From NCBI RefSeq assembly GCF_041146795.1, contig NC_135183.1, positions 13,988,840 through 14,052,839 on the forward strand: DNA of 64,000 nucleotides. The letters are read 5' to 3'. The notes beneath the pieces are model-generated. The model did no database searches, was not told the origin of the DNA, and saw only the letters and a program-made list of their open reading frames with translations. This document shows positions 22,273 to 53,737 of this stretch, piece by piece. Made by a program: the position numbers and the translations under genes. This DNA is from Maylandia zebra (lineage: Eukaryota > Chordata > Actinopteri > Cichliformes > Cichlidae). Position 1 is the first letter of the stretch, and each line of letters opens with the position of its first letter.

Positions 22273-22606
22273 AAAAAACACCCAGCACGCCCCTGCGGGC
22301 GGTTTATCCTTCAAGCTCGGGTCCTCTACCAGAGGCCTGGGAGCTTGAGGGTCCTGCGCAGTATCTTAGCTGTTCCCAGGACTGCGCTCTTCTGGACAGA
22401 GATCTCCGATGTTATTCCCGGGATCTGCTGGAGCCACTCGCCTAGCTTGGGAGTCACCGCACCTAGTGCTCCGATTACCACGGGGACCACCGTTACCTTC
22501 ACCCTCCACATCCTCTCGAGCTCTTCTCTGAGCCCTTGGTATTTCTCCAGCTTCTCGTGTTCGTAGTGATCGATGTAGCGGTTCCGAATGACAGCAATAT
22601 CAGGAA

Positions 22607-22641
<35 letters not shown>

Positions 22642-23273
22642 GTCCATGTTGTACGCCACATCCTCATTGAGTTCCTGATGAAGGCTCTTAGGGTCCCATT
22701 GATCTTGTACAATTCTAGGCATTCCAGTATCCAGCTGTGGGGCATTGAGTCATAGGCCTTCTTGTAATCAATCCAGGCAGTGCACAGGTTGGTCAGTCTG
22801 GTCTTGCAGTCTCGGCTGACTGTTCTGTCTACCAGTAGCTGGTGTTTTGCGCCTCTGGTATTCTTGCCAATTCCTTTCTGTGTCCCGCTCATGTATTGAC
22901 CCATGTGCCTGTTCATCTTAGGCGATATGATGCCTGACAGGAGCTTCCATGTAGTACTGAGGCAGGTTATTGGTCGGTAGTTGGAGGGGACCGGTCCCTT
23001 CTTGGGGTCCTTGGGGATCAGGACCGTCCGGCCTTCGGTTAGCCATTCCGGGTGTCTCTCGTTAACTAGCAGCTGGTTCATTTGTGCTGCCAGACGCTCG
23101 TGGAGTGCAGTCAGCTTCTTCAGCCAGTAGGCGTGAACCATGTCAGGCGGTAGGCGTGAACCACCTGGTGCTGTCCAACTCTTCATACTGGAGACCCTTT
23201 CTTGGATATCTGCCACTGTGATGCTTACTGGACCCTGTTCAGGGAGGTCGCTGTGGTCTGCCCTCAGATCCAC
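22273..23273 (-). mobile_element. R4/Dong-like LINE, chimeric remnant in TA repeats
   Basis: On the minus strand, 23273-22640 encodes part of a reverse transcriptase (RTVLIPKDPKKGPVPSNYRP and WIDYKKAYDSMPHSWI). After a (TA)n tract (about 22609-22637) comes a 46-bp piece in the opposite orientation, then the C-terminal part ending [13 protein letters not shown]. The same C-terminal part occurs at 35.69-36.30 kb, where the order of the short piece is normal. R4/Dong elements have a single ORF with a C-terminal restriction-like endonuclease and prefer simple-repeat targets. The middle of the ORF is missing, so the copy is dead. Confidence 0.82.
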
Positions 23274-27571: not shown

Positions 27572-30500
27572 TCAGGCAAGTTTTTCCAGCAGGCGATGGT
27601 GGAAAGAACGAAGGCGTGCCAAGATCTCCTCCAGAGTGGAAGGAGGAGTCAAAATACACAGCCTGAGAGAGAAGGAAAAAGAAACACACCAACACAACAT
27701 TAACATATACTACCTTGAAAAAGAACAGTCACATGAAAACTACTTACATTTTTAATGTGTTTAGATCACCAAGCATTTGACCTTTGGAATAGTGCCTGCA
27801 TTTGCTCGATTTTACCAATTTTAAATATATACAACGAAACTAAATAGAGCCCTACATTTCATAAAGTTACAAATAAAGGATCCAGATTGTGTGCTAATTA
27901 TTAGAACCTAATTATTAGTATCTGATTAACTAGTACTTATATAGCATTTCTTGCACTTGCTCTAACTGAGCACTAGAAGCACTTTATTACAAGACATGTT
28001 TCCCTATTCACACACATTCATATAATGCTTTAATCTGTACTAAAGTGTTAGCCAGTAAGCGTGGCTTCACAGAAAGATCTGTGAAACTGGTTTATTTTAT
28101 TATATGTCTTTGTGTTGTTTCTGTGCTGCTAACCAACCAGGCTAGCAATAGCTGACAACTCTGTAATATGGCCACTTCTGGCTTTAAAAAACAACAACAA
28201 CAACACAGTTAGGGACTTGAATGTTAACATTGAGGCTTCAGAAACCAAAGAGTGACAGTTCGTGGGTTAACTTAATCTTTTACATACAGTTTGCTATTTA
28301 AGATTTTTCAAAAACCTCTTTAAATAATGCGGTAGGAATGAGAATGCAATTCCAATAAAATTAAGCAATTAGCAATCAAAAAAGACCCAAGTAAAAATGT
28401 TAATGAGATAATGGTCAGCACAACAGCATCAGCAAACTGTTTATTTTGTCTACAAATCATTCTCTACATTTTTTCACAAAATCACACATTTAGGGGACTA
28501 AGGGCTAATTAAAGATCTGACTAGAAACATAAAATAAAATTTTACCTGATGTGATAGTTTTTATCTTCCTGTCCATTCTCACAACCTGCCCCCACACAAA
28601 TACCCTCTTCTCTCAGCAACCTCTGACAGTAAAGCACATCCGCCTTCACTTCCAGCCTCTGAAATTAAAGACAGTAAAACATTGTATCAATTTATGATTT
28701 TCACTGTTACATAAAAATGCAAGCAATTAAATGCTGGATTTTTAATGTTAACAATTTTTTTTACTCATATATACTGCTCAAAAAATGAAGGGAACACTTG
28801 AAAAATCCTAACTTTTCCTGACTGAAATCCTTACTTTTGGTAAGATTATAAATCTCGCTCATCCAAGTTGTGGGAGACGAAAAAATGCTTCTCCCGCTAA
28901 ATTGATTCTTTCATTCACCCAAGTGACAGAAGAAGTGACTTGGGTGAGATCCAAGTGAAGAGAGACCTTTTTTTCTTCAGCGTGCATTTATGTTCCCAAA
29001 CTGGGAAGTCTAATGTGATGTGGGGCAGTTTATAAGTTAATATAAACTGCAGTGGGCTTTTATTTTGACATTATTTTAATCTTAAAAGCAAAGCTGTAAA
29101 AACATACTGGATTAAATTTTACCCCTGAAATTTAAAAAAGTAGGAATGTAAAGTTCCCTGAAATCGAATTAAAAAACAAACAGGCACACAATCAGAATAA
29201 CATCCATATTTTTATCTTTGAAATCTCACCTTAGCCTCCTCTACGATGTGAGGTGGCAAGTGTACCCGGGGATAAAGAAAGAGTCCTGCCATTGATGGCT
29301 GACAGCTCATCCCTTCTACTCTATTCAGAAACTCACACGCCCGTTTAGCATTCTGGGAAAGAGTATCCTCAATATGATGAATCTCCTTTAAGAATAAAAT
29401 AAATATTACTGTAGGCTGGGGAGCTCCTTGAAAAACACTCATTTACTCAACTGCAGTTTTATTCAACATATTGTATCTCATATCCTCTTGGATGCTATGG
29501 CTCACTGGGTCATGCTGACGCTGCACCAATGCTGTAAATATTCACAAGACTTTGGATTCACCTAACAGAGTATATCAGGGAAAGGAACAATCCCCCTGCC
29601 AGTTTAACAGTTCAAGTGTTATGGTAATGGTAAATGGTAAATGGCCTGCATTTGTATAGCGCTTTTCTAGTCCATAGGACCCCAAAGCGCTTTACACTAC
29701 ATTCAGTCATCCACCCATTCACACACTGGCGATAGCAAGCTACATTGTAGCCACAGTTGCCCTGGGGCGCACTGACAGAGGCGAGGCTGCCGGACACTGG
29801 CGCCACCGGGCCCTCTGACCACCACCAGTAGGCAAACACGGGGTTAGTATCTTGCCCAAGGATATTTGGCATGCAGCCAGGGTGCAGCCTGGGATCGAAC
29901 TACCGACCTTCTGATTAGTGGCTGACCTGCTCTGCCACCTGAGCTACAGCCACCCTCAAACACCCTTATTGGGATGTTTACATGCCTACATGCATTGAGT
30001 TGCTGCTATGTGATTGGCTGATTAGATATTTGCATTAATAGCTGAGTCGGTGTACCTTATAAAGCATCTGCTAAATGTACCATGACAACATGTAATGTGG
30101 ATGCTGCGGCTTATGATGATAAACCAACAGCAAATCTAATTTCTCTGCAGTTTCCTTTAGTTTTGTGAATGTGTTTATCCTTGTTAAGCTCCTTATTGCA
30201 TTTTTCCTACAGCATAACTGTTTTGTCTCCATGATTACACTTTAATACAATGCATTTACCAGAGATCCTTTTTGATTAAATAAAGACGTTACCATAGGAC
30301 AGTCCCCTTACCTGTGTGTATGAGTTATAGGAAGAATCTTCAGGTCTAGGTGGATTAACACTAAGTTCCAGTGCCAGCTGTGGTAACACTGAAGCGCTGG
30401 AAATGACAGTTAAGTACTTTTTCACTGCTGGGTCAATGTTGATTACCTCCATATACCCTCCTCTCAGACCACCCCTAAACAAAGCAAATGCAGAGTTTAA

Positions 30501-33500
30501 TAAACAGCATTGATTAACACTGATGAATGCTCTATCATTCAGGAAAGGAAATTCCAAAAGGTTAATTGTATTGATCTGGACATTGTATTTTCAGAGGCAG
30601 AGAAAACGCTTCTCGAACTCATTCCAGTGACTCCTTCAGTCACTCAAACCAGTGACTGACTAGGATGAGTGACAGAATCAACTTTGTAGGGTGTTCTTAT
30701 ATTCCCATCAGCAGTCGATTTGTATATTAAAAATGGACCCTATCGAGATGTCAACCACTTTTATGCTTTTAGGCAAAAGTGATCATATTTAGACATGAGT
30801 GTTCATTTATCAACTAACAGTAGCAAGCTTGGTTAGAAAGTCCATAAACTGTACAAGTACATAGATATCTGTGAAATAGAGCTAACTAATAAGGACATTG
30901 GGATAATAGGGACAATGACTAACACATGTTGAGGTTAGACATTGATCATTGAATGACACTCACTCTCCTATGTGGGCTGTGGAAATTGAATGGAAAGACA
31001 CCAGCTCCATTGTCTCAGCATACATTTTACCCATCTCAGACAGCACTTTCTTGTAGGAAATAAATTCTTTGTCCTGGCCGTACACACTATCCTGGTGCAC
31101 CTAGACAGTACAAGTGAACATCAAAAGAAAAAGTGAAAAGTGAAAACCTGCACAACTCCTCCAAAGGGCAAGGGCTAAACTAAAACAATGAGGTTTTATG
31201 ATATTTGAATTACTACGTGCTGACCTCGAGCTGCTTTTATAATAGCCCACTGCTTTCTGACCTTGGAACTATGATCTTGAAGGATTACATACTAAAATTG
31301 TGTATTTTATTGTCTTTACCCATATGGTTGGAGAAGAATTTGCTTATGTGTGATTTTCTGAAACATTATAGCATCATTGTGGTAATAAAAACTGTTGTAT
31401 AGCTCTCTCCATGCCCTTTTTAATATGACATATTACTTAACATGGTTTCTTGAAGTCAACCTTGGATGCTAACAATGAAAGTTTGAAGACAATCAGTTCC
31501 CTCATCTGCAAATGGTTACTGGACTTCCTGACCAACCGCCCCCAACATGTCCGGCTGGATAACCGCTGCTCATCTACCATCACAATGAACACCGGTGTAC
31601 CACAAGGCTGTGTGATGAGCCCTTTCCTCTACTCCCTCTTCACCCACGACTGCAGACCTGCTGATGGTTCCAACACCATCATTAAGTTTGCAGATGACAC
31701 CACGGTGATTGGCCTCATCAGTGACAACGATGAGGCCGCCTACAGGGAGGAGGTGGATCGTCTGGCTGAGTGGTGCGACACAAACAACCTGCTGCTTAAC
31801 ACCGAGAAGACCAAGGAGCTCATCGTGGACTACAGGAGGAATGCTGACCCACATCCACCCATCCACATTAAGGGGACGGCTGTGGAGCGTGTGAGCAGCT
31901 TCAAGTTCCTGGGAGTCCACATCTCCGAGGATCTCACCTGGACGACCAACTGCTCCAAGCTGGTCAAGAAGGCTCACCAGCGCCTCTTCTTCTTGAGGAC
32001 TCTGAGGAAGAACCACCTGTCCTCAGACATCCTGGTGAACTTCTATCGCTGCACCATCGAGAGCATCCTGACCAACTGTATAACAGTCTGGTACGGGAAC
32101 TGCTCTGCCTCGGACCGGAAGGTGTTGCAGAGGGTCGTGAAAACTGCCCAGCGCATCGCCGGAGCACCACTTCCTGCCATAAAAGACATCTACAGGAAGC
32201 GGTGTCTGAAAAGGGCTGGGAAAATCATCAAAGACCCCAGTCACCCATCACATGGACTCTTCACCCTCCTGCCCTCTGGGAGGCGCCACAGGAGCCTCCG
32301 GACTAAGACCACCAGGTACCGGAACAGCTTCTTCCCCACAGCTGTCAGACTCCTGAACTCTGCCTCCTGACATCTGACCCACGTTAACTCATGGACTGAA
32401 CATACACACACACACACACACACACACAATGGACAACTGTACCCTCAAACACACAATAATAACATGGAGTGAACCACCACTCACAACCACTAGCACTTTA
32501 TATAGCCTCTGTAGAAATTATCCACACCCTCACTTACCTTAACTGCACTACTGTATAGCCCTGTGTAAACAATCATTCTGTACATACGATAATTTTTAAC
32601 CCTACAACTGTTTACAACTTGCATAGTTCCCATTTCTGTATAGCTGTATATCTCAGATTTCTGTAAAGTTATTTATTTCATATTCTGTATAGTTTTTCAT
32701 ATTTATATCCTGTCCATATCCTGTCCATAGCTTGTACTCACTACAGCCTGTACATACTTATAGTTATAGAATATTCACAACATACTTCATACCGTGTACA
32801 TTATAACATAATAGACCCATTTCTGTAATATACTTACATATCTATATTATTGCTAATATATATTGTAATATATCTATATCACTAAGCACTTCTGGGTGGA
32901 TGCAAACTGCATTTCGTTGCCCTGTACCTGTGCATGTGCAATGACAATAAAGTTGAATTCTATTCTATTCTATTCTATTCTAAAAAAAATTGTGGGTAAT
33001 ATAAGTTTGTTTTGTTTTTTTTTACATATTTTTATATTTGGTTTCACTTGATTTTCACAAACATTAAGTCAGCTCGAGCTGTTACTGGTAGCTACCATCA
33101 CACAAACTTTGTACATGATATTTTGAAAACTGTGGAGGTTAGACTGCTAACAAACAGGCAGGCAAAAACAGCCAGACTGATGATGTACTCTTTCTCTTTG
33201 AGGGGAGAGTAAACGTTATGCTTGTGGTCACCTCTTCAGCCAGTATGATGAGGCCATTGGTAGCAGCAAAGTGAATCACCTTCTCAATAGTTTCTCTGTC
33301 TTGCACGTAACCTACCAGGGGAAAAGTCACATTATTGAATGAGCTTCTATGAAGTAGCTGTAAACCACAAATCCACATGTGCAGTGCAAACAGCTAGAAA
33401 GAGACTCACATTTTAGTTTTTATTTAACTCTTAGGCTTTAAGACAGTTGACCTCTTAGCATGATATAGTTTTAAAAAGAGGACGAGGATTCTCTTAACGT

Positions 33501-33834
33501 ATACACGAATATAGAATAGATCAAAAGCTGTGCAGGATGTACCAACAATGGGCTGCTCACCTGTAGGTTTTCCTGGGTTGCTGATGTATATGGCTTTGGG
33601 CTCACAGTGGACTCTTCCAGCCTCTAAAGCTCTATGCAGCTCATCCAGGTTTACAGCCCAGCCTTGTTCTTCAAAAAGACGGTATGGAACCAGTGCCAGC
33701 CCAGTCATGTCCAGCAGCATGGGCAGAGTATGTGGACAGGGCATGGGGGTCAGCACACCTGTCTGAGTTTTGCCCTCTCCGCTGGTAAGCAGGTTCAAAA
33801 ACACCTATAGTGCAAAAATTATGTTGTTTTTGTC

Positions 33835-33894
<60 letters not shown>

Positions 33895-35617
33895 GATGAA
33901 AATAGTGGGTAGTTTTGTGCATGATCAAAAGATGTGGTTGCAGCAAAGTGGTGAATTCACAGTAAGGAATGGTGTGGGACTGATACACAGTGGCGGTGGT
34001 GCTCATGGTCAGTGTTCGGTTACATCAAGCATAGCAGAGATTAATTTTAATTTAAGCTGAAGAGAGTTGATTACAGCTTAGACTCATTCACTCAAGTCCT
34101 CCTTTATGCCAGTTATATACTATGATAAAGACACTGTTAGTGTAGGAAATAGAAATCAGTCTAAATAGCTGGGGGGTTTTTTGTTTTTCATTCACTGCTT
34201 GTATCCTAGATACAGATTCAAGCTAAGTACATTTGTATTCTCGTGTGCTGATATTTTTATATTAAGATACCAGCAGGTTCAGTTGCCTTTGTATAAAAAT
34301 AGATGGTAGAATTGTCCTTCAAGGAGCTACCTTTTACTTTCTTACTCTGAGTACATTTCAGAGTCTGCACTTGTTCGCTTCTGCAACTTCTTAAGTGAAG
34401 AAGTTGCAGAAGTACGTTAACTTTTACTGCATTTTACTTTTCCTTTTTCTTGGCTTTGCCAAGTGGTTACATTTCTGGTGGTTACAAGTTAAAGGAATGG
34501 TTGGCCTGCGTCTCACAATCAGGATTTAAAGTGTCTGTCAGAGTCCAGAGAATAAGAATGATTTGCTAAGAAACACACCACATCACTCACAGATTACATC
34601 TGGTGGAACACCTTTCCAAGAATTGGCCAATTTTTAAGCATTTCTTAAGTAACTAATTATACAAAGCAGAAAGATATAGCTTTATTTTAAAAAGAAAACA
34701 AAAAGAAACCTTCATTAAAATGTTCAGTATAAAGTGTCACACCGACAAACTCTTCTGTAATCCAGTAGTTAAGATAATGTCTTCTGGATGAGAAGGCACG
34801 CCACCATCTCGCCTTGTGATAAATTCAGAAATGCTTTTCTGGACTTGTGGTAAACCACCGGAGGTTGTGGAGTATGAACCTGTCACAGGCAAAGTGATTA
34901 GACTGGCCAGCAGAAGCATTTATACTCACTTTGTGCATTGCTTGCAGATATAATTGTTTTTTCTCACCCACACTCCCTCCAGAACACATGTCCAGAAGCT
35001 TCTGTGCCCTTTGCCTGACATCCAGAGGAAGGCTTTTTTCTTTGAGGAGCTCAGGGTACAGACACACTGCCATAACCTAAGAAAGCAATCAGAAAGTGAT
35101 GTGCTCAGGTTGACAGAGAAGTGCAGGTAAAATTCACAGATGATACATAAAACACCAACCTGGCGAATAAATGAGATAGGTGGCATTCCTGCCTTGTGTG
35201 GATCACCTGAGCTGACATCAATCACACTCTTGAAGGGTTTTTTTACACTCTGGAAAAATACATCAGTGTTTATCAATATTGACCGTTTTTTAAATTGACA
35301 GCTAAATTCTATCTATGCCAATCATGTACTTATCTCTTTAACCCTTTGACATTTGGTTTTCCCTTGGCTAATTTAAACTATATAGAGATAGAGAATGAAT
35401 TCAATATTAACCATATATGACATAACCATAGCTTATACTTGTGGTTAAAAATGTACACTCATCCTCATCCATTTCCTTGACGTGGAGGTCAAGGAAATGC
35501 TGGCCTTTTTTTTTGAATAAGTAGAAGAATAAGAGAGCACAAGGGAAAAAATAGTCTGATCTGTGGCCTTAATATTTATTTGGTTTTCAGACATTTCATT
35601 TGTAGTAACTATCAAGT

Positions 35618-36377: not shown

Positions 36378-36618
36378 ACAGGTGGATATAATCCTTTGAC
36401 AAAAGAGGATAAGCTGCAGATGTGTGGTTGACCAAATTGAATGACTACTATTTACTATTAAACTGCTAACAATGACTCATAATTTATACTGTCTCTCAAC
36501 TTCTTTACAGCTGACTCACCTGTGCAATCTGCTCTGAGATGCATGCTGCTAGACCCTGCAGGTTCACTGGGGCTCGGATCCCACGCACCCTGGGATTCAC
36601 GTCCTGCACAGTGCTCAT
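27572..36618 (-). CDS. Alanine aminotransferase-like protein, copy A (lysine-less)
   Basis: Eleven coding exons join into one 472-residue frame: 36520-36618, 35160-35249, 34968-35076, 34743-34879, 33561-33804, 33232-33311, 30964-31100, 30312-30474, 29230-29385, 28546-28658, 27572-27662. Every intron is GT-AG. Blocks such as [44 protein letters not shown] and NYHIR follow the order of vertebrate alanine aminotransferase (GPT/GPT2), a cytosolic or mitochondrial PLP enzyme that interconverts alanine and 2-oxoglutarate with pyruvate and glutamate. The start ATG at 36618 matches the family's VNPRVRGIR beginning and leaves no targeting peptide. The PLP-binding lysine is Thr294. The cofactor Asn, Asp and Tyr are Lys224, Glu252 and His255, and the phosphate-cup ASD is LQK. 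Arg303 and the carboxylate-binding Arg443 remain. Known family chemistry therefore predicts no transaminase activity. The open frame and clean splice sites argue against a pseudogene. The gene is in tandem, same strand, with copy B. Confidence 0.9.
28776..28830. repeat. End fragment of a DNA transposon
   Basis: ATACTGCTCAAAAAATGAAG followed by GGAACACTTGAAAA is the wording of a common DNA-transposon end in fish. The rest of the element is not recognisable. It lies in the ninth intron of copy A. Confidence 0.45.
29611..29955 (-). mobile_element. tRNA-derived SINE (V-SINE-like), minus strand
   Basis: This is the complement of the SINE at 11.57-11.89 kb. It has a B-box-like GGTCGGTAGTTCGATCCC near 29900, the CTTGGGCAAGATAC core word, the GGACACTGGCGCCACCGGGC block shared with the other copy (read on the plus strand), and a 3' tail ending at GCGCTATACAAATGCAGGCC and TTTACC repeats at 29611. 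It lies in intron 8 of copy A. Confidence 0.85.
31445..32985 (+). mobile_element. L2-like LINE, 5'-truncated, antisense in copy A intron 6
   Basis: An uninterrupted frame to 32370 encodes the C-terminal part of a non-LTR reverse transcriptase. It has [20 protein letters not shown], the catalytic [13 protein letters not shown] (the second and third metal-binding aspartates), [33 protein letters not shown], and a terminal [19 protein letters not shown]. About 600 bp of 3' untranslated sequence follows, ending GACAATAAAGTTGAATTC and a (TTCTA)n tail at about 32957-32983. The N-terminal endonuclease and start of the RT are missing, as in most LINE copies. The long open frame suggests a recent insertion. 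Confidence 0.9.
32403..32428. repeat. (CA)n microsatellite
   Basis: A run of about 13 CA units inside the 3' untranslated part of the L2-like LINE. Confidence 0.9.
33830..33893. repeat. (TAA)n microsatellite
   Basis: About 21 uninterrupted TAA units in intron 4 of copy A, just upstream (in gene direction) of the exon starting at 33804. Confidence 0.95.
34378..34412. repeat. 15-bp stem hairpin in intron 4 of copy A
   Basis: CTTCTGCAACTTCTT and its exact complement AAGAAGTTGCAGAAG flank a five-base loop (AAGTG). No role is evident. Confidence 0.75.
35622..36375 (+). mobile_element. R4/Dong-like LINE 3' fragment embedded in (TA)n
   Basis: A TA tract (about 35622-35686) leads directly into an open frame beginning [20 protein letters not shown] and ending [13 protein letters not shown] at 36245. 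A short 3' tail (GGCGTGCTGGGTGTTGTTTG) and a second TA tract (36304-36374) follow. The frame contains a Cys/His knuckle (C and H spaced as in R4 elements) and [10 protein letters not shown]...AVVIDVAVP, which fits the PD-(D/E)XK restriction-like endonuclease of the R4 clade. It is 5'-truncated and lies in intron 1 of copy A, antisense to the gene. Insertion into TA repeats agrees with the clade's simple-repeat preference. Confidence 0.85.
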
Positions 36619-39275: not shown

Positions 39276-42200
39276 TTACACTTCTGTTGGGGTCACAGTG
39301 CCACCCATGAGACGGCAGTGAAAGGAGGTGAGGCGAGCTAGGACCTCTACCAGGGTGTAATGAGGAACAAGGATGCATAATCTGCGGGAGAGCACCACAA
39401 ACAAGAGTCAACTTTTTGAAGCAATACAACATGCAGTACAAACCTCAAAAGGTTTTATGATTTCATATACTTTACCTCAAATGGAAGCTGTCAGTCATTT
39501 CCCCATGTTCACCTGCACCAGCTAATACACCCTCCTCTTCCAGTAATTTCTGACAGTACAGAACATCAGCTTTCAGCCCCAATAACTGAAAACAGAAGTG
39601 CATATAGGACAGTATGGCTTTCAACTTTTGTACCATCAGAATGATGTTTTTTTTTTTTTAATATTCACATTTTTTTCACAATCCCTCAATAGTCTGTTTT
39701 CAAGGTTAAGCCATGTAAGGAATAAAGATGGAATCAGGTTCAAGTAAGGATAATGGTTTGGCATTCATTTGTAATGGCTAAACTTGGTGGTTAGACTTGG
39801 TATTCCATTAACATTGATAATAGACTGATGGAGAAAGAAAGATGGAAGATTGTTGGAACATTTCCCACCTTGGCCTGCTCCTTAATCCCACATGGTAAGT
39901 GCAGGCGAGGAAAAACATAGATTCCTCCAAGCACTGGCTGACACCTTACCCCTGGCAGTTTATTTAGGAGCTCCTGAACCCATTGAGCATTATGGGACAG
40001 AGTAGCCAGGATGAAGAAGGTCTCCTTTGTGAACAGAACAACCAGTAATTAAAAGTAAGAGTGTAACAGAGGACAACTGTTGGCTTTTGCTGTTTCCTCA
40101 CCTGCATGTATGTGTGATACGATGGGTCTCCAGATTGTGGCGGATTGACCATAAGATCCAAACCAAGCTGTCCTGTGACTGGAGTACTGATATCACCACA
40201 CAATGTGTTATCAAAATAATAAATCACCTCTGGATCCATATTAACTACCTCCATGTATCCAGCCCTCAGACCACACCTAAGATGCAGACACAGATTATCT
40301 TAATTAATTTATCAATATAATGCATTTAAAATTTGAGAAATGTCTAAACTATTCATTTAAATGCATGTATGGTATAAGAAGGCATGAAAAGTGAAGCTTG
40401 AAAGTATATTTCAAAGTGTATTTAGCCTACATTAATTCTAATGATCAGTATGTGGTTGCATAAACAAGCTATGCTATAGAAGCCTAAAGCCCTTTTCACA
40501 AAGGATACGGCGCATACAGTGATGCGCACAGAAACACATTCATTTCTATTGCTTGTGGTGCAGAATAATGGTTTACTGCTGCGTCAAGCAAAGTGCAGCG
40601 CAAGCATATCAGCAAAAGGTACTGACACATCCCGTGGTCAAAGTTCAAACCAGTTTAACTTTGACTGCTGCGCGTTGTTATGTAAATTTGTGCAACCAAT
40701 AAAAAAGAAGCCCACAGTTGCACTAAGTTCTATGAGGTGCCGTAAGGGACATTATTACTGAAACGCTCTCACACACACAACTGAAACGCTCTCACACACA
40801 CTACTGAAACGCTCTCACACACACTACTGAAACGCTCTCACACACACAACTGAAATTTTAGCTCTCACACACACAACTGAAACGCTCTCACACACACTAC
40901 TGAAACGCTCTCACACACACTACTGAAACGCTCTCACACACACTACTGAAACGCTCTCACACACACTACTGAAACGCTCTCACACACACTACTGAAATTT
41001 TAGCTCTCACACACACTACTGAAACGCTCTCACACACACTACTGAAACGCTCTCACACACACTACTGAAACGCTCTCACACACACTACTGAAATTTTAGC
41101 TCTCACACACACAACTGAAACGCTCTCACACATACAACTGAAACGCTCTCACACACACTACTGAAACGCTCTCACACACACAACTGAAACGCTCTCACAC
41201 ACACTACTGAAACGCTCTCACACACACCACTGAAACCAGAGGCATTTCCGCTGAACAGGAAGTTGTTTCCTGACAAGGAAACTGATGGAAAAAGTGGTAT
41301 ATTTCAAAACACTACAAGGATGTCTACTCAGCAACCTGCTAGTACAGCAGTCCCCAACCTTTTTTGCGCCACGTAAATGATATAAAAATAAAAAAACGAT
41401 AAATACCATGAAAACCATAAATAGAAATGTGTTCGAATTTTTGTGGAGGAATAAAACCCATTACATAGAAAGATCTCAGCTTGTGAAGGGATACAATAAA
41501 GGTGGTATCAAAACTCCAGAATTGGAATTTATGGTTGGCACCCTTAGAATTAAATGGTTAAAATCTTGTCTGTCACAGCCAGACTCTACTTAGCTCCACA
41601 TCCCATGATTCTTGTTTAATAAAATAGTATACAGGATTAGACTTTATTTTGAAATGTGATTTTGCGGCAAATAAAATCCCCATAAAGATATCAAACTTTA
41701 TAAAACAGACGTTGCATTTTTGGGAAAATGAGATTTACCCACAACTTCTCCCCATAATTCAACCTTATGGAATAATAGGGTAATAACACTTAATCAAAAA
41801 TCAATTTTCAAGAGTGACTGGTTTGAACAAAAATATTATATTCATAACAGATTTGTTGGATGATAACGGTGTCATTCTAAGTTACACAGACTTTTCAGAA
41901 AAATATTGTCTAAACTGTTCTCAAAGAGAATATAACAAATTTTGTGAACTGGTCCCACTGCCTCTGCTTCATTTGATTAAAATTTTTATGATATACAATA
42001 ATTTCTCATCAGTGCTCCCAAATTTATTGCTAGGGCAATGTCAGCTGTTTGATAAAAATGCAATAAGAAATTTGTTAGTAGTTTCTTCAAAGACAAAATA
42101 TTTCATAGTTACAACAGAATGGTTACATGGCATGGTTCTAATTTAGTTATTTCATATACACTGGATAAAGCATACTAAAAATTTATGAAATAGCCTATTC

Positions 42201-45200
42201 TACCTAAAGTTAAAGAAACACACTTTAAACAAAACTAATACTGTGGCAGAATTTCTAAAAAAAGAGATTTGGCTTTGAGGTGGATCAGTGTTCTTTTTGT
42301 ACTGATGAAAATGAAACCCTAGAACATCTTTTTTTCCCCTATGCCCTATCAGACAATGTATTTGGTGCAACTTAAAAAATTGGATTTCCCTAAATATTAA
42401 TGATGTGCCACTGTTTGAATTACATCATAATTTTTTTTATATGGCTCATCTAGCATTGGATGTCTCAGACATTATTAACATCATCATACTTTTGAGTAAA
42501 TATCATATCCATTGTGCTAAATGGAGGAACGCTAAGCCTTCTCTCCCTGGTTTTATTGATGATTTTAAGATATTTTTCTTTGCTAAAAAAAGACAAAAAG
42601 CACATATGCCATAAAAATAACCAGGATAATGCACGTTTCCCGCTATTCTAAATTTTGACTTATGCTGAGGCTAATATATTGTTAAGTAATGCAGCTGTCT
42701 CACTAAGGTCCAGAATCGATTTGTTCCACGATTCGATTCAATTCAATTCGATTTGATTATGGGGAATTTTGACAGTCAGAAATATTATAATTCAGATCAG
42801 TACATTTACATATTTTTGTATTTAAAAAAAGGAAGCTGACACATGCAAGACTTTATCAAAGGTGTGAGCATCACAGCAGATGCCTTTGTGTCAAAGTAGC
42901 TGAAGATAAAACACATAAAAACATGAAGGTGGTTTTCCTGGCCTGGGATTTTATAAAAAAATATTCTGCAGTACATCAAAAACGAAAGAAAACCATTAAT
43001 CAACATATGAACGTTACCTCTGATGTTACAGCGGTTTTATTAGAGACACGGCTAACGTTTTGCATTTTGCATAATTTAAAAAAGTTTAAATTTATTCAGT
43101 ATTGAACGGCAGAAATTAGGTTTTCTTTTCGGAAATATGTAAAATGGGAAAAAAAAAAAAACAGCGGCCGACTGCGCTGTAAACAACAGTAGACTTGTGC
43201 CTAACAAGCAAGCGAATAATGCAGAAAACAGATTTTTAAACGGAAAACTGTTCTTGAAGTACAGAGAGAGAGAAAGAGAGAGAGAGGGCTGTGCATGACG
43301 TGCGATTTTATCGTGGTGGAAGCAAAACAGTGAGGGAATTCATGACGATGTTTATGTGAAGCGCAGTTTGGATCTTCTTTTGCTGCTGGTTCAGTCAATA
43401 TTGTTTGGAGAGAGATAAAACTAACAGCTTTAGAATCGGCGCAAAAACGGCGTGAAAACAAAGCGCGGACCTGCCGACAGATCAGAATCAGTGAGCTGTT
43501 GGCTTTCAGCCCCGACTGTGTCCGTGCTGTCGGGTGAGAAAGGCGACATCTCACTGATTCTGATCCGCGGGTCCGCGCTGTGTGTTTACGTCTTTGTGCA
43601 GAAGCCGTGTACCTGCTCTGATTTACTGTCTTAGCTTTTTGGTGGTTGTTGAAATTTTGTGAGGTTTCACCAGAGATTCTGGCATTTCGGGCAAAATAAA
43701 TTTATATTAAAAAATCGATTCAGGATTTTAATGAATCGATTTCACGTTATCCAAGCCAGAATTGATTTTAATCAATAAATCGATTATAAAAACCCACCCC
43801 TAACTAACAGGTTGCTGAGTAGACATCTGTGTAGTGGTTTGTTTGAAATCTAACACTTTTTCCTTCAGTTTCCTTGTCAAGAATTAACTTCCTGTTTAAC
43901 TGAAATGCCTTCCTGTTTAACTGAAATGCCTTCCTGTTCAACTGAAACGCCTTCCTGTTCAACTGAAACACCTTCCTGTTTAACTGAAATGCCTTCCTGT
44001 TCAACTGAAATGCCTTCCTGTTCAACTGAAACACCTTCCTGTTCAACTGAAATGCCTTCCTGTTCAACTGAAACACCTTCCTGTTCAACTGAAATGCCTT
44101 CCTGTTCAACTGAAATGACTTGGTTTTTCAGTTGTGTGTTTGAGAGCGTTTCAGTTGTGTGTGTGAGAGCTAAAATTTCAGTAGTGTGTGTGAGAGCGTT
44201 TCAGTAGTGTGTGTGAGAGCGTTTCAGTAGTGTGTGTGAGAGCGTTTCAGTAGTGTGTGTGAGAGCGTTTCAGTTGTGTGTGTGAGAGCTAAAATTTCAG
44301 TAGTGTGTGTGAGAGCGTTTCAGTTGTGTGTGTGAGAGCGTTTCAGTAGTGTGTGTGAGAGCTAAAATTTCAGTAGTGTGTGTGAGAGCGTTTCAGTAGT
44401 GTGTGTAAGAGCGTTTCAGTTGTGTGTGTGAGAGCTAAAATTTCAGTAGTGTGTGTGAGAGCGTTTCAGTAGTGTGTGTGAGAGCGTTTCAGTAGTGTGT
44501 GTGAGAGCGTTTCAGTAGTGTGTGTGAGAGCTAAAATTTCAGTAGTGTGTGTGAGAGCGTTTCAGTAGTGTGTGTGAGAGCTAAAATTTCAGTAGTGTGT
44601 GTGAGAGCTAAAATTTCAGTAGTGTGTGTGAGAGCGTTTCAGTAGTGTGTGTGAGAGCGTTTCAGTAGTGTGTGTGAGAGCGTTTCAGTTGTGTGTGTGA
44701 GAGCGTTTCAGTAATAATGTCCCTTACGGCACCTCATAAAGTTCAACCATAGGATGAAGAAAAAAATTTTGCGCATATTCGAGTTGGGTGAACTTTTTGA
44801 CAGAAGTTAAGGTGCATAGTTTTTAAACTTCCAGAACTTCTTCTTTAAAGCTTTCTTCTTTGAGAGATACTTTTTTTTTCTTCACATTTGAACATAATAC
44901 AACACAAACTCTCAAAGAGGACACAAAGTCACAGAGATACATGTTTTGAAATGACACGGAGCTGGGGCATCTAGTACATGTAGAACGGCCATAAACAAAA
45001 CTGACATACAAGCAGAGCGCAGCGGCATTTTTAATAGATAAAAGGCAAATGGTTCGAACATGAATTAAGGCTGTAGATTGGGGAGAGCCTCAGGTGGGAC
45101 TGGCGGAGGCTCTCAGGCCAGGCAGATCTCCGTGTACTAATGACAAGCTTGTATAGCAGAGTGTGTCAGATATAGATAGAGCCAAAGCAGACCCAGCAGA

Positions 45201-48200
45201 CTTGCTGTGGTGCAAGTAGTGGTAGAATGGCCTGTTCTGGCTGGAACCAGGCTGGAACCAACTCCGGTGTTTCCTAGCATTTACTACAATTGATTCATTT
45301 GCAACTTCAGCCAAATAGCCCAAACACTCACTAACCTAACATCTCCCAAAATTCCTTTTCAGTGGATGCCTCCACTCAAGAAGCCTTTGACACACTCTTC
45401 GGTTCAGCCTCCATCCCCATTAAGCCACATCCATCTCAGGTAAAATGCACCCATATGCCTTTTTCTCTCGCTGTCTCTTTCCCAAAAAACAATAGACAAT
45501 GATGTTGGAGACATTGGCTAGAAGGAGTTGAGCACCCTTTTCTTTGCATGGACAGACCTTAGCCATGCCTTTTGCTCATCAAGCCATACAGATGCAATTT
45601 TTTCTGCACAAGTCTGGAGGCCTCCACCCGAGCCGGAGGTTTCTGCACCTGTTGGTCCCATCACCTCCGCCGGTCCACAGTGGAGCATCGCTGGACTGGC
45701 AATATCTCAATTATAAAGTATAGAAAATTGACTGAGGCCTAAAATGATATTATTACAAATATCTTTAAAAAAAACTACATTTTTGCGCCTCCGGCTTCCA
45801 GTTGAGCTCCAATGCCACCACTGTCCATGCGGCCATCCACCAGAACTTTTGTCTAGGATCCTGTTGGAAATTGTTGTTGACAAACATAAGAGACAGAACT
45901 CACTCTCTAATGCAGGTACTGGATAAAGAGTGGAAGGAGATCAGCTGCACTGTTTCTGCAAGCTCTATATCCATTTCAAACAGGACTTTCTTATAGGAAA
46001 TAAACTCTCTGTCCTTCCCATACACGCTGTCCTGGTACACCTGGAGTGCAGAGGAAAGAAACTGATAGATAAAGAAAACCTGACAAATGCATAATAAAAA
46101 GCCAATCTGAAAAGACAGCTCATGGTCACCTCATCAGCTAACAGTAGGACTCTCTCAGCTGCTGCGAACTGAATCACTTCCTCTATTGACTTCCTGTCCT
46201 GCACATGGCCTAGAAAGACAAAGGTAATATAAACAGTGATGAAAGAAGACTGTATCTCCATCTAATGTACAGTACAGTGCAATAGTTACACCATTTGGCA
46301 CATCCTCTACAGTGAAAATAACAAATAGCAAAGTTTTACAGATTACAGTCTAAAGTAAAATGTCAGTCATATATATTTAACCTCTTTAATATTCTGGATA
46401 TTTATAATTGAGCTATTTGTATATATTAGAGCTATTTCTAATATTTTGTAACTTTTTAATATATTGTATTATTGAATTTATTTCAGTCAGTTGCTGTCCA
46501 GCAACTGTAACCACATAATTTCCTTCGGGATTAATAAGGTGTGCTGATTCGGATTCTCATTTCACTTAGCTACTGTGTTTTACTTACCTGTGGGATTTCC
46601 CGGGTTGCTGATGTAAATGGCTCTGGGCTCACAGTACCCCCGAGCAGCCTTTAAAGCTTGATGCATGTTGTCCAGGTCTACAGCCCACCCTCTCTCCTCT
46701 GTCAGCTGGTACGGTACCAAGACTACCCCAGCCTCCTCCAGCACATTGTACAGCATGTGTGGGCAGGGCCCAGGTATCAGCACGCCTGTCCGAGTATTCC
46801 CCTCACCACTGGCCAGCAGTTTCACAGCAATCTTATAACAATAATCGAAAAAGCTATATTTTTTTCCTTTAGGGAGAGCAATCTTTTCTGTCACTTTTTG
46901 CTACAGGTTATTAAAAAATCAGGAATAAATGAAATAAAATAAATGTTTGAAGCAGAAAACAAAGTAAAACTGTTTCCCCTCGCAACTCCCTTTGCAACAA
47001 TGAGAGATCACTCACACATTTAAGCTTTTCTTTACAACTAACTCAATAAACTATGTTTAAAGGCTAAATTAATACAATACACCTGGTTGTTTCAAAGATT
47101 CTAAAAATATGTTACATGTAGAAGTAAAAATGTTTAAGCTGTTGTTTGAGAATATTTTGGTTATTTTGGTTGAGGTTTTTACAATGTGTAAAGACTGGAC
47201 ATTATTATTAATACAAATCATATTATTTTTCAGTTAAGTGCAAAGATAAAATGTGAAAGCTAAACAACTACTACAGTTTGCTATAGCAGAAGATACATAA
47301 AAAAGTCATGGAAAGGATTTCCACGTCATCAAATTGCTTTATTTCAGCATTATGCAGGTCTGTTATTCCAACTTAATGTACTTGAGTTGGCTTATTAATT
47401 AATGATGAATCAACTTATTTACTGCAGTTGAGTCCAGCTTAATTTAATTGAGTTGATCCAAGCCACGCAAATTACATTAGTCCAGCAAAAGCACTTAATG
47501 CTGATAAAAAGTCATTTATGAACAATAAATAGCAATAGCATACACGTGGTGTGTGTATAATTTCCTGCCTCTTGTGACCCTAGTGATTTTCCTGTGGTTT
47601 GTAATGATTTTGTGATATTGCTAGTCCAGGCAACTAACCAGTCTTGCTAGCTTGCATTATGTCATCTCAACAAGAATAAATTTAGCAAGTGTTATGCTGA
47701 TGAATTTGATGCAGATTGTATATGTTTCAACTATGTTCACTATAGAAACATCAAATTGTTTAGTTCAAATTACAACTTAGACTCTTTAAATGAAATAACT
47801 ATCCAATTTTAGTTTTTTGAGCGATGGTAAACCCTAAAGATTTGTGGGTGTGTGGTCTGAGTGATAGGTGTGTTCACTCAGATAACTGCACTTTCCAGCT
47901 GTCTGTTTTTATGCTATTGTGTCCTTTCAAAGCATTTTAAAAAAGATAAAGTGGCTGATAAAGTTGGACATTGCATCTTGCTTAAAATGTGTTTTATTGT
48001 GTGGCCTCCCTTGATGTTAGACATGTTTAATTATGTAGTGCAGCGGTCCCCAACCCCCCGGGCATCGGACCGGTTCGTGAGTCGTTTGGTATAGGCTGGG
48101 ACTGATCCACTGCCCTGTGACTTATAGGAATAGGTGGCTGAGATGAATGTCATATGTGCTGTTGATATTAGTTTACTTGTTTCTAGTTTTCACGGTGCTC

Positions 48201-51200
48201 CATGATTGTGAGAGGAATAAAAGAATTGTGGACATCAGTATGAAGCGTGGATTCTTTCGACCAGAGTAGATACATGTAGCATTTGTGTAACTAGAAATAG
48301 TACGAATAGTGTTCATAGTCATACCATTATAGCCCTTTGAGAGCCAGCAGAAATAAAGATGTTTTGGGCATATGAAGGAACTCCATCTCTTTTTGTGATG
48401 AACTCAGCGATGCTTTGCCTCACATGACGAAGACCAGAGGATGCAGTGTATGAACCTATCAAATTATAATTATTTAAGTATATTTCAATATACATGTGAG
48501 TTAAAATCCCAGACTCTCAAGTTTAAAATTCAGTTTGTACATGCAAATTTTTTAACCCTCACCCACACTTGCTCCGTCACAGGCCTCCAGGAGTTTCTGA
48601 GCTCTTATCTTGACATCCAGAGGAAAACATTTGTCTTCCAGCAGCTGAGGGTATATACACACTGCCAAGACCTGAGGAAGTAGGCCAGATTCAGAGAGGA
48701 GTTTGTAGACAAGACTTTTTGAACAAGGAAAGTGTTTTTAACACATTAAGAAGACAACATGGTTACAAATATAGGATATGTATGGTGCAAGAGTAATATA
48801 AAATGCAGGAATTAACAATAATCACTATACATTACATCCACTGCAGAAAGTAATGGACATAAATAAAGCACATGAAAATAAAATGGATAAATAAGATTAC
48901 ACTTAAAAAATCACAACTTATATGACAGATACACAAGTTTGACAGGAATGCTTACACAACACAAAAAGTTACACAACACAATTAATGAACACTAACCTGT
49001 CGAAGAAATGAAACATGTTGTAAATCAACTCTGTGGGGATCACCTGAGCTAACATCAATCACCTTCTTGAAGGGTTTCTGCGCCCCCTGCAGGACAACAC
49101 ATGTTTAAGACTCAATTCTCTAGACCCGAAACAGATTTTCTCATTTCTCGCAACATTTCTGAGGTTCTCAGCTCCCAAGTTAGCTAACAGTTTTAGAGAA
49201 ACAACTCAGTTAAAACAATTAACTCATAAATGAAGAAGCAGTTTGAATGTTTATTACAGCTGAAAGTTTCTTTGATTTAATGAAAACCAGCCTGGTTAAA
49301 ATATTTAGATTTTTAATCAAAATGGCAGTGGACCACAGAAGTGTGTTCCTCATCTTCAAATTTTCTTAACTCTTTAACCCTTAAGTAACCCCTGAAGTTC
49401 CTTTCTGAAGTGAGCCATTTCTGTCATATTTAACGCTTTTGGTTTAACTCTTTCACTGAGACTTCAACTTTGCTAGCTCTTCATTCCTCAAAGATTTTAT
49501 CCAAGCAGCTCCGCTATGTTTGAAATTGCTGCAAACCTGTTGTGTGTGTGCTCTGTGAATATGCTTACATATATCAGGGGCAAATATGGGTTTAATATCT
49601 TGCCCAAAGACACTCAGTTAATCAGACTTGAAGAATCAGGGACTGATATTGTGTTTAATTAAAAATATTAAGTAGGTTGAACTCAATTTTTAACAATTTG
49701 TTATTAGAACTCAATTTAAGTAAGTTACCAGTACTTTTTATGCAAAAACGCTGATCAACTCAATTTATTTGAGTTGTCTTAACTTAGAAAAACTAAGTAA
49801 GCTGGAAATGTTGCTTCTCAGTGCGGAAGGCTGAAAGACGTGTTTTGAAAGTGCCACGCCACTACTGTCCCCCTCCCTAGCATGGATGTTAATGTTAGCT
49901 ATGTTATATTGCTGCCTCTGTTCGGTGGTGTCGGGCCAAACGGACTTTAACGTGTGTTTGAACGAGCTGACGGTTCACTCGTTAAGCTGAAAGAAAGATG
50001 CTTTAATCACAGGAGTCACACATGTGTCCACTGAACCATCTGGGAACTCTTCTTGTTTCGTAATAACACAAATACTAAATCCTCCTTCTTTTGTGCTGTT
50101 TTGTAGCAGTGTATACACCTGAGACTGTCACCTGTCTGTCTGTGCTGCACTCTCTCTCTGTTTCTTTCTCTCTGTGTTGTGTAATAAAAGTATGAACATG
50201 TATTTATAAGTTACACTTGTGTTTGAATCCTGCAGCTTATCACACATTTGATTTCCATGTGTGACAACTGCAAGTGTCCAGAGTGATGACAGACTGAGGG
50301 ACCCACTGCTGCACATCATCTGTGAGGCATTGCACTCACTGAAGGAATAACTGAAGGAACAACATTTGTCTCATATATATGATACACCTATATATGCACT
50401 GTCAAAGATACTTGTCTTTGAGTGAAGATTTAAGGTGATAAGACATATAAATAACTGCAACTTGAATCTGTACTGAGGCTCAGTATTTGACACAGAGTTC
50501 ATGTTCACTGCTGTAATAGCTAATAATGATTAATATAATAACTATAATAATATTGGGCATATTATATTTACATTACCAAAGTGATATGACTTTAGTCTCA
50601 TGAACAACATTAGCTAATTGTTATTTACTAACTAATCTTGAAATAACTGTTCAGTACAGAAATGAAGCCCAAAAATCATGTTTTACTGTCCTGTGGTCTC
50701 AGCCTCAGATACTTATCAAATCACACAAAGCTCATGTAGAAACAAACAAACAAATGAACAAAATATGTTCTCCTTCATTTCTGTCAAGCAAAGTTGTATG
50801 ACACATTTCCAGCGGTTAGTATCATGGTTGCTAGGCAACCTGGGAAGCGCGACGGAGACTAGACCGTTGCATACAGACAAACTTGCTGTTTAATTTGCAA
50901 ATCGAGCTCAACACTGCCCCTAGCGTCCTGGAGCACTTCCGTTGTGTTTTGGAATTTGCATGTGTTTTGGAGTTTGCATGTGTTTTGCATTTTGCAAGTG
51001 TTTTGGAGTTTGCAAGTGTTTTGGAGTTTGCAAGTGTTTTGGATTTTGCAAGTGTTTTGGAGTTTGCAAGTGTTTTGGAGTTTGTACGTGTTTTGGAGTT
51101 TGCAAGTGTTTTGGAGTTTGCAAGTGTTTTGGAGTTTGTACGTGTTTTGGAGTTTGCAAGTGTTTTGGATTTTGCAAGTGTTTTGGAGTTTGTACGTGTT

Positions 51201-53737
51201 TTGGAGTTTGCAAGTGTTTTGGATTTTGCAAGTGTTTTGGAGTTTGTACGTGTTTTGGAGTTTGTGAGATTATAATATTATTTTATGCCATGTTATACCC
51301 CTAATTAAAGATTGTGAATTATTATGTAGTTTTAGTTTGCATTATTCTCCTGAATTAGAAGAAGGTGATAACTATTGCATTTGTTAAACTGATTTGCATT
51401 ACATTAGATTGCTGATTTATTGTGAATGAATGATATTGTTTTATGATGCATTATACTGCTGAGTTATAAGAAATACTGTTCGCAGAAAGTCATCGCCTTA
51501 TTTGTCTGATTAGAAGAGAACAGAACATACTGGAGTTTTCTGCCCCATCTCAGCAGGAGCAGATAAACAGGGAGCCAAGGTCGTAGCTTAGGCACTGTGT
51601 GAGAGAAAGCATGTGAATGTTTAGGCTTTTATGATAAGGTGGGGGCCACTAGAGGCTATAAGAGTTTGATCAATGCTCCACCATTTTGAGATCTGATGCT
51701 GTCTGCGTACGGTGTCCATCTCCCACGCGTGTGATCATTAAAATCATTGTTTGACTCAACCCGGCCGGACCAGTGTTGTTATTGTGGTTTTTCCTCTTGT
51801 GTCCATCCCCAATATTTGAATCCGTAACAAGTTTGCAAGTGTTTTGGATTTTGCAAGTGTTTTGGATTTTTCATGTGTTTTGGAGTTTGCAAGTGTTTTG
51901 GAGTTTGCAAGTGTTTTGGAGTTTGTACGTGTTTTGGAGTTTGCAAGTGTTTTGGAGTTTGCAAGTGTTTTGGAGTTTGCAAGTGTTTTGGAGTTTGCAA
52001 GTGTTTTGGAGTTTGTACGTGTTTTGGATTTTGCAAGTGTTTTGGAGTTCGCAAGTGTTTTGGAGTTTGTACATGTTTTGGAGTTTGCATGTGTTTTGGA
52101 GTTCGCAAGTGTTTTGGAGTTTGTACATGTTTTGGAGTTTGCATGTGTTTTGGAGTTTGCAAGTGTTTTGGAGTTTGCAAGTGTTTTGGAGTTTGCAAGT
52201 GTTTTGGAGTTTGTACGTGTTTTGGAGTTTGCAAGTGTTTTGGAGTTTGTACGTGCTTTGTCTCTAGGGGCCACCGTAAGAATGTAACCAAACTGTTTAT
52301 CATTGAGAAAGTGTGATGGAACATTAACATAGTGTTAGTTTTTAACCAGCTGTTGTTATTATTTAGCCAGTTTTTGTCTGTTGGAATCTTTCTCCTACAA
52401 CAGAACATAGATGTGATGCTTCATATCTTGAATATGGAGGAGCAGACATGAATTAAAATGTATCCTCACAGTATGCAAATGCCTACGGGGACTCTCTTCT
52501 CTTCTACATTTGGTATTTTACATTTGGCCCACATAAAACGTGATTAGTCTGATGAAAGAAGTCCTTCCCGACCACTGCATTCAAATAGAGTGGGACAACA
52601 TTGCTGCTTCCACAAACTGCAAACCCACTGATGTGTATTTTTAATAGATTAATTATATGTTTGTTGGAAGACGTAATTACACACCAACCTCCTATATATT
52701 TCGGAGTACACTATGGTTTTTGGCTATTTAATAGTGTAAAATAAATTACTGACTTCACCTTTAAAGGTGGTGTAACACTACTGCTGTGTATGTGGAGAAG
52801 ATGTAGACATTTGTTCACAACCCTGTGACAACCATTAAAAAATAAACAATTAAACAGGAATCTGTAACTCTCAATTTGTAAGACCTTCTGATTAGTAGAC
52901 GGCCTGCTTCAACATCTAAGGCACAGCCGCATAGTGTAGTTGCATGTTGTCACCTTACTGAGATGCTGTATGTTACTTTAACTCCTTTAATTTAGCACTC
53001 CTCAGTAGATCTAAGAGTGTGTAGATAACTGTAAATCCTGTAAGCAAGTAGAGCTGTCTTGTCACAAGTGATTTTTGTGGTTGTTTGCTATGACAGATCT
53101 GTAAATACCTTTTATGTGTAAATCAAGGAGTTTGGCAAGTGTCAACTTACCTATATTTACATCTCCAGTAGGGAAATGTATGCATTCTCATTTACACATT
53201 TGGCTACATGTTCTAAAAATAAATAAATTTAAAAAAAAACCACACATTGCGTTACCACTTGAAGAGAGGCTAGTCTTTCCCGATGTTTGCTACAGAGATT
53301 GCATTTACTTTATTCCACGGACACTTTTACTTAAAAGAAAGATATTTTGGATATATACGTTTGAGCTGATTGCCAGGACTTACCAGTGAAATCTCTTTTC
53401 TGATTCGTTCAGCCAGATTCTGAAGCATAGTTTGCGGAGAGTCTCTAAGCCCTCTCACTGTGGGGTTCACATGTTGAAGAGAAGTCATCATCTCCATGAA
53501 ACAGTTGAACTCAAATGTTGGAGCTGTCCATTTAAAACTATTGCAGTCCGAGGAGCTTTGCCAGACAGACACTGCTTCTTCCAAATTACTTTCTAGCACA
53601 GACTTTCCCAAAATGTGGGGCCCGCCCAAAGCCATTGCGGGGAGCGGGGGCAACGCTTGGACACTGCTAGCACAGGGCGCCACACAAATGCAAAGCAGGA
53701 GATGAAGCATCGCTGAATGTTTCCAAACCAACTTCAT
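39276..53737 (-). CDS. Alanine aminotransferase-like protein, copy B (lysine-less)
   Basis: Eleven coding exons form one open frame: 53384-53737, 48997-49086, 48563-48671, 48325-48455, 46588-46831, 46130-46209, 45904-46040, 40102-40276, 39869-40024, 39476-39585, 39276-39381. All introns are GT-AG, with the same phases as copy A and mostly identical exon lengths. Family blocks include [50 protein letters not shown] and SFHLRLCIL. The PLP lysine is Ser377 (FHSLSSTCIREC), and the phosphate-cup ASD is SQR. In contrast to copy A, the cofactor Asn307, Asp335 and Tyr338 remain, as does carboxylate Arg529. Starting at 53737 gives 563 residues with a hydrophobic leader (MLHLLLCICVA); starting at Met81 gives 483, close to the usual core. 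No transaminase activity is expected. Intron 7 (5.6 kb) holds a fold-back element and intron 1 a minisatellite. Confidence 0.88.
41408..42610 (+). mobile_element. L1-like LINE ORF2 C-terminal fragment
   Basis: The plus strand encodes INRNVFEFLWRNKTHYIERS and GGIKTPELEFMVGTLRIKWL, then after frameshifts NGVILSYTDFSEKYCLNCSQ. Order and wording match the C-terminal domain of fish L1-type ORF2, beyond the reverse transcriptase. The fragment is broken by several stops and frameshifts and lies inside the fold-back element. Confidence 0.65.
42700..43803. repeat. AATCGATT-rich non-autonomous element
   Basis: Repeated AATCGATT-type words lie at both sides (42710-42760 and 43712-43790), with CCACCCCTA at the right end; the complement TAGGGGTGGG is common at fish transposon ends. 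The middle carries an imperfect inverted repeat (43462-43578). No coding sequence was found. The class is uncertain (hAT-like or similar). Confidence 0.45.
46890..48320. other. Intron 4 of copy B
   Basis: No exon was found. A transposon scrap with GCGGTCCCCAACCCCCCGGG lies at about 48042-48062, related to CAGTCCCCAACC at 41348. Confidence 0.4.
50925..52272. repeat. 18-bp minisatellite, split by a solo LTR
   Basis: Two arrays (50944-51264 and 51830-52256) repeat the unit GTGTTTTGGAGTTTGCAA, with variants in which GCAA is GTAC or GCAT and GAG is GAT. Both arrays run in the same direction and are separated only by the LTR insertion. The outer flanks carry GCCCCTAG on the left (50917) and CTAGGGGC on the right (52264), suggesting the whole block is a small element with inverted ends. 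Because 18 is a multiple of three and the unit lacks stops, several frames on both strands stay open. These are not genes. Confidence 0.9.
51265..51829 (+). mobile_element. Solo LTR of an endogenous retrovirus-like element
   Basis: The segment begins TGAGATTATAAT and ends CCGTAACA (TG...CA). It is flanked by the 6-bp duplication AGTTTG (51259-51264 and 51830-51835). Inside are a TATA-like CTATAAGAG at 51656 and a poly(A)-type ATTAAA at 51737, in the order of a U3-R-U5 LTR read on the plus strand. No internal gag-pol-env sequence is present, so this is the product of LTR-LTR recombination. Confidence 0.78.
52273..53383. other. Intron 1 of copy B, proximal part
   Basis: Nothing coding was recognised between the minisatellite and the first coding exon of copy B. 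Confidence 0.4.

Follow-up and report, generated by a model that had tools for sequence, protein, structure and literature searches.

Paralogues of pyridoxal 5'-phosphate (PLP) enzymes that lack the catalytic Lys are already known. The nearest precedent by family is Saccharomyces cerevisiae Alt2, an alanine aminotransferase (ALT) paralogue without ALT activity that has been kept and whose role is unclear (PMC3458083, in excerpt). In serine palmitoyltransferase, SPTLC1/LCB1 is a PLP-enzyme paralogue without the PLP Lys, and hLCB1 heterodimerises with hLCB2 (PMC3794620, in excerpt), while aspartate aminotransferase with the Lys changed to Ala is catalytically dead and regains activity when amines are added (PMC12018205, in excerpt). 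Here we describe two neighbouring ALT-like genes, copy A and copy B, in a 64,000-nucleotide stretch of the cichlid Maylandia zebra (contig NC_135183.1, positions 13,988,840 to 14,052,839; hereafter the window). Neither gene encodes the Lys, and we hold with high confidence that copy A is a conserved Lys-less pseudo-transaminase under selection. Such a neighbouring-pair teleost version of ALT appears to be absent from the literature we searched: no paper on Lys-less fish ALT was found in the open PubMed Central literature, judged mostly by titles and abstract openings, and the available part of PMC9309667 holds nothing on the subject.

Two intact genes without the Schiff-base lysine

Copy A lies on the minus strand, where 11 exons from 36618 to 27572 encode 472 residues with a single terminal stop and GT-AG borders at 10/10 introns, in agreement with the intact frame and eleven clean exons of the preliminary description, which had been made from the letters of the window. 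That description also placed the Lys-less exon at the right coordinates, but left its strand unstated. Over all 472 aa the product matches P0001 without a difference (100% identity); P0001 is a Maylandia zebra protein (Cichlidae, Haplochromini) annotated alanine aminotransferase 2 and heads a cluster of 16 sequences formed at 90%. In exon 7, Thr294 (ACA) occupies the position of the Schiff-base Lys, as had been noticed; the human ALT2 (3ihj) row is aligned gap-free in this region, reading SFHSTSKGYMGE, and both human and barley ALT have the Lys. The other changes listed in the preliminary description were found as well: where human GPT2 (PDB 3ihj) has GASD, NPGNPTG and ADEVY, copy A has GLQK, Lys224 (NPGKPTG), and Glu252 and His255 (AEEVH), and it retains Arg303 and Arg443. 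Copy A further has Pro169 where the human protein reads QYPLY. The structure model of copy A is a full ALT fold, with 3ihj and 3tcm as the best matches both by sequence and by fold, and the Aminotran_1_2 domain (PF00155) is matched at 94.4 bits against a cut-off of 19.7. No family-specific NCBIfam name was obtained, the best 25 each of the 39, 61 and 38 matched families all being below the cut-offs.

Copy B is located upstream of copy A on the same strand (53488 to 39276) and has 11 exons that, read from the initial Met of MTSLQHVNP, encode 480 aa without internal stops. Its exon 7 (SFHSLSSTCIRE) has Ser at the Lys position; NPGNPTG and ADEVY are retained and the phosphate loop is GSQR. A close relative, P0253 of Haplochromis burtoni (annotated alanine aminotransferase 1), is adjacent to copy B in the tree. 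A tblastn search of the whole window with both proteins found no convincing third copy.

The lysine is absent throughout groups A and B

We collected 275 homologues, nearly all from fish, in three protein searches (the best 120 of 459, 2556 and 538, respectively), dropped ten fused models of more than 560 aa, and added copy B, human and barley to give an alignment of 268 rows. The rows are 90% clusters including isoforms and partial models, and the counts below are therefore not species counts. By identity to representatives they were grouped into A (64), B (64, with copy B), C (108), 30 early-branching rows set apart and two outgroups. The Lys is present in 117/268 rows, human and barley included, and replaced by another residue in 151/268. 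None of the 128 rows of groups A and B has it, versus 104/108 rows of group C, whose Lys-bearing members include the cichlid proteins P0191 and P0202. Thr is also found at this position in Oreochromis P0005 and Archocentrus P0006. Because the Lys is missing in 128/128 rows, chance and sequencing error are excluded, and assembly error or one-off decay was rejected by this survey. An alignment of orthologues, which the preliminary description had proposed as a check, bears out the loss, but the loss does not set copy A apart: copy B and every other row of the two groups share it. Judging from these sequences, the Lys-less family is old, widespread and kept, and is not one broken gene. In group A, rows P0033 (456 aa) and P0110 (467 aa) are long frames from contigs of only 1931 and 2666 bases, respectively (source marked 'lgn'); given the 9 kb over which the gene extends in the window, such contigs look like spliced RNA.

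The four group C rows without the Lys are P0167, P0189 and P0197 (Gln; Chaetodon auriga and Chelmon rostratus among them) and P0234 of Mola mola (Asn).

Pocket residues are kept, loosened or lost

The Tyr that is residue 191 in the sequence of the 3ihj chain, and which we take to stack on the PLP ring, is replaced by Pro in 124/128 rows of groups A and B (Pro169 in copy A). Three further contacts are loosened: Asn224 is found in 113/128 rows, Asp or Glu at 252 in 121/127 and Tyr255 in 100/127. Kept residues are the cross-dimer Tyr102 (127/127), Ser291 (124/128), Arg303 for the phosphate (126/128) and Arg443 for the carboxylate (125/126), the two Arg having been named as retained in the preliminary description. 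When the 473 alignment columns were ranked by variability within the two groups, the Lys column was at the 87th percentile, Asp252 at the 63rd and Tyr255 at the 59th; Tyr102 was at 0, Ser291 at the 15th, Arg303 at the 9th and Arg443 at the 8th. At least 97% conservation is seen in 66/473 columns.

These counts qualify the earlier statement that copy A had lost most cofactor contacts. The Lys is gone group-wide and the stacking site is mostly Pro, but the changes are of mixed age and the statement was overstated for the family. N224K occurs only in P0001 and P0003 (2/64 group A rows). His255 is carried by six of the eight cichlid rows in group A, namely the African rows that have a residue at this position, and, apart from these, by Solea P0054. 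D252E is a conservative change usual in group A. Nor does the change of ASD to LQK, which the preliminary description had listed, mark a dead site on its own: the Ser-to-Gln change and the loss of the Asp are common to Lys-keeping relatives, with group C mostly GSQW. The old Asp of GASD is Lys or Arg in 100/125 rows of groups A and B and Trp in 107/107 rows of group C.

By analogy with the Lys-to-Ala aspartate aminotransferase, normal transamination is likely lost in the family, a softer statement than that of the preliminary description, in which copy A cannot transaminate. A retained anion-binding pocket would, we infer from the sequences, explain the conserved Arg, Ser and Tyr.

Selection between the copies and the age of the loss

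Copies A and B share 56.5% identity over 469 aligned residues. In a pairwise codon model, the ratio of nonsynonymous to synonymous substitution rates (dN/dS, or omega) is 0.294 (dN 0.32, dS 1.11), and omega = 1 is rejected with twice the log-likelihood difference at 87.7. The preliminary description had supposed selection on the intact frame and had named a neutral ratio as evidence that would count against it; the value obtained sides with selection. Because the Lys is missing from copies A and B as well as from every other row of their groups, the divergence between A and B took place, on the tree, in a Lys-less protein.

In a tree of 55 proteins, built without the Lys column, groups A and B are nested in a euteleost clade (100/100) whose sole Lys keeper is Hypomesus P0244. 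The residue at the Lys position is Asn in the rows of salmonids, Aplochiton, Polymixia, Centroberyx and cod, and Thunnus P0044 (Ser) is placed weakly with group A (91/64). In an elopomorph clade apart from this one the residue is Asn or Arg, and the Lys is kept in P0265 and P0266 (mormyrids) and in the tarpon and eel rows P0249 and P0271. On this tree, the loss of the Lys comes several branchings before the duplication into A and B that the percomorph rows show. At least four changes between Lys and not-Lys are required. A single euteleost loss after the branching of Hypomesus is not rejected by the approximately unbiased (AU) test (p-AU 0.247), and P0244, which reads SLSKSVLGE at the Lys site, possibly represents either an early branch or a regain. 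One clade of all deep Lys-less rows (euteleost and elopomorph) without Lys-bearing rows is rejected (p-AU 3.9e-5), but we do not take this as proof of two losses because the penalty may stem mostly from forcing P0244 out of the euteleosts.

What the Lys-less proteins may do

We propose that copies A and B would be neighbouring members of an old teleost ALT-like pseudoenzyme family that lost the Schiff-base Lys and acquired Pro at the ring-stacking site, while the whole fold, the phosphate- and carboxylate-holding residues and the dimer-crossing Tyr were kept. The dimer pocket would then bind an anionic ligand without covalent catalysis, either free PLP or pyridoxamine 5'-phosphate (PMP), or phosphate together with an amino or keto acid. 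The ligand-bound dimer could in this way serve in regulation or sensing, perhaps in partnership with an ALT paralogue that has the Lys. In its general form, that copy A is an ancient pseudo-transaminase keeping the fold and the anion-binding pocket for ligand binding and/or pairing with such a paralogue, this is the explanation we favour, with somewhat more confidence than doubt. Ligand binding by itself, as the function that was retained, we would place a little short of an even chance. Only tentatively do we go further and suggest that a euteleost ALT family, Lys-less through most of its history and with A and B duplicated in percomorphs, is a non-covalent B6, amino-acid or keto-acid regulator of alanine metabolism, and that the Lys was lost repeatedly (in euteleosts, in an elopomorph lineage that includes eels, bonefish and a tarpon, and in certain genes of group C).

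Several points weigh against this interpretation. The roles of the PLP-contact residues in copy A are presumed ones, named after their aspartate aminotransferase equivalents, and the Arg and Tyr residues may have been kept for structural reasons alone. The ring contacts are still eroding in cichlid copy A (N224K, Y255H), which together with the long stem of copy B (0.27) suggests that constraint may be weakening in the cichlid lineage, and the pairwise dN/dS averages both branches and could hide recent relaxation on one of them. In addition, the ring-stacking position in group C is His in 63 rows, Tyr in 39, Phe in three and Gln in three (of 108). Since Lys-bearing group C proteins are thus often without the Tyr too, its absence is no clean sign of death; our estimate is unaffected, because it is built on the missing Lys, the evidence of selection and the fold.

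Fold type I active sites are located at the dimer interface, and the invariance of the cross-dimer Tyr102 and the presence of Lys-bearing group C proteins in cichlids fit a regulatory subunit, in which the Lys-less protein would pair with a Lys-bearing ALT (group C or classical GPT) and tune it as SPTLC1/LCB1 does for serine palmitoyltransferase. A pure scaffold, however, would not need its own-pocket Arg303, Ser291 and Arg443, which are kept. Such pairing is the main rival of ligand binding, or would add to it; as an explanation in its own right we consider it rather unlikely. An enzyme of changed chemistry, in which another residue (e.g. Lys224 of copy A, or Lys/Arg142 of the GSQx loop) or an external amine substitutes for the Lys, could draw on the basic residue at position 142 in 100/125 rows and on the amine rescue cited above, but Lys224 is confined to two group A rows and nearly all A/B rows have Pro at the stacking position, and we find it improbable. 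Still less credible is a drifting pseudogene whose frame chances to remain open. The further pocket changes in haplochromine copy A, one codon fewer (RDGVPS vs RDGGVPS) and Arg replacing Gly of MGE in copy B would suit such drift, but the window holds two intact 11-exon copies with intact splice sites, their dN/dS is far from neutral (likelihood-ratio statistic 87.7), and the A/B alignment retains its strongly conserved columns. An artefact at the Lys codon, whether of assembly, annotation or allele, would be compatible with a window taken from one assembly only; with P0001 identical to copy A, Thr in Oreochromis and Archocentrus and the Lys in no A/B row, homologues already refute it, and we give it practically no weight.

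Gene coordinates and other elements in the window

Table 1. Exons of copies A and B and the Schiff-base Lys codon, in window positions.
Feature	Positions	Strand
Copy A exon 1, start Met	36520..36618	-
Copy A exon 2	35160..35249	-
Copy A exon 3	34968..35076	-
Copy A exon 4, Tyr102 and GLQK phosphate loop	34743..34879	-
Copy A exon 5, Pro169 and NPGKPTG with Lys224	33561..33804	-
Copy A exon 6, ends AEE of AEEVH	33232..33311	-
Copy A exon 7, holds Lys-position change	30964..31100	-
Copy A codon ACA, Thr294, Schiff-base Lys position	30978..30980	-
Copy A exon 8, Arg303	30312..30474	-
Copy A exon 9	29230..29385	-
Copy A exon 10, Arg443 codon shared with exon 11	28546..28658	-
Copy A exon 11, stop TGA	27572..27662	-
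Copy B exon 1, from Met of MTSLQHVNP; frame open upstream to 53737	53384..53488	-
Copy B exon 2	48997..49086	-
Copy B exon 3	48563..48671	-
Copy B exon 4, GSQR	48325..48455	-
Copy B exon 5, NPGNPTG kept	46588..46831	-
Copy B exon 6, ADE of ADEVY kept	46130..46209	-
Copy B exon 7, SFHSLSSTCIRE, Ser at Lys position	45904..46040	-
Copy B exon 8	40102..40276	-
Copy B exon 9	39869..40024	-
Copy B exon 10	39476..39585	-
Copy B exon 11, stop TAA	39276..39381	-

The open frame upstream of copy B exon 1 (53489-53737) could begin with a hydrophobic, signal-like stretch (MKLVWKHSAMLHLLLCICVAPCASSVQA), and in H. burtoni the start on record is 49 codons ahead of MTSLQ. Intron 1 of copy B contains two short-unit arrays (GTTTTGGAGTTTGCAAGT and variants) at about 50942-51275 and 51773-52274, with long spurious open reading frames in several frames. 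In intron 7 of copy B, a 4 kb stretch (40731-44738) has inverted minisatellite arrays (CTCTCACACACACTACTGAAACG) at either end, whose pairs are 92-99% complementary among the 25 longest of 183, and resembles a mobile element whose ends are made of repeats. Intron 6 of copy A holds a reverse transcriptase remnant on the strand opposite to the gene (31450-32370; RVT_1 and ALKBH8_N model match). Other mobile-element pieces in the window are a DDE_3 transposase, a Tc3-like transposase domain and a reverse transcriptase (10044-10817, 1348-1878, 22326-23273).

Comparison with known systems

Most named rows of the family are labelled alanine aminotransferase or alanine transaminase in databases, and if A and B are non-catalytic, calling them ALT enzymes is a wrong reading. 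Genes bearing such names are reported from the liver transcriptomes of fish; PMC5929548, for one, lists two named alanine aminotransferase 2-like, which may or may not be of the Lys-less groups, as induced in flounder liver. The family offers a natural series (Lys kept, lost early, lost recently) for testing what becomes of a PLP fold after its chemistry is gone. Within the series, the nearest Lys-bearing percomorph group is that of the group C proteins (e.g. P0129, P0202, P0191), which share GSQx in place of GASD with A and B but differ from them in having the Lys almost throughout, and the Asp and Tyr of ADEVY in 108/108 rows each. Beyond ALT, SPTLC1/LCB1, which we take to belong to the alpha-oxoamine synthases, unlike ALT, resembles A and B as a Lys-less paralogue; it has a shown partner, whereas for A and B a partner would be an analogy. 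Yeast Alt2 is closer by family and is inactive, but is reported to retain its alanine and PLP binding sites (PMC5483587, in excerpt), whereas every row of the fish A/B family is without the Lys.
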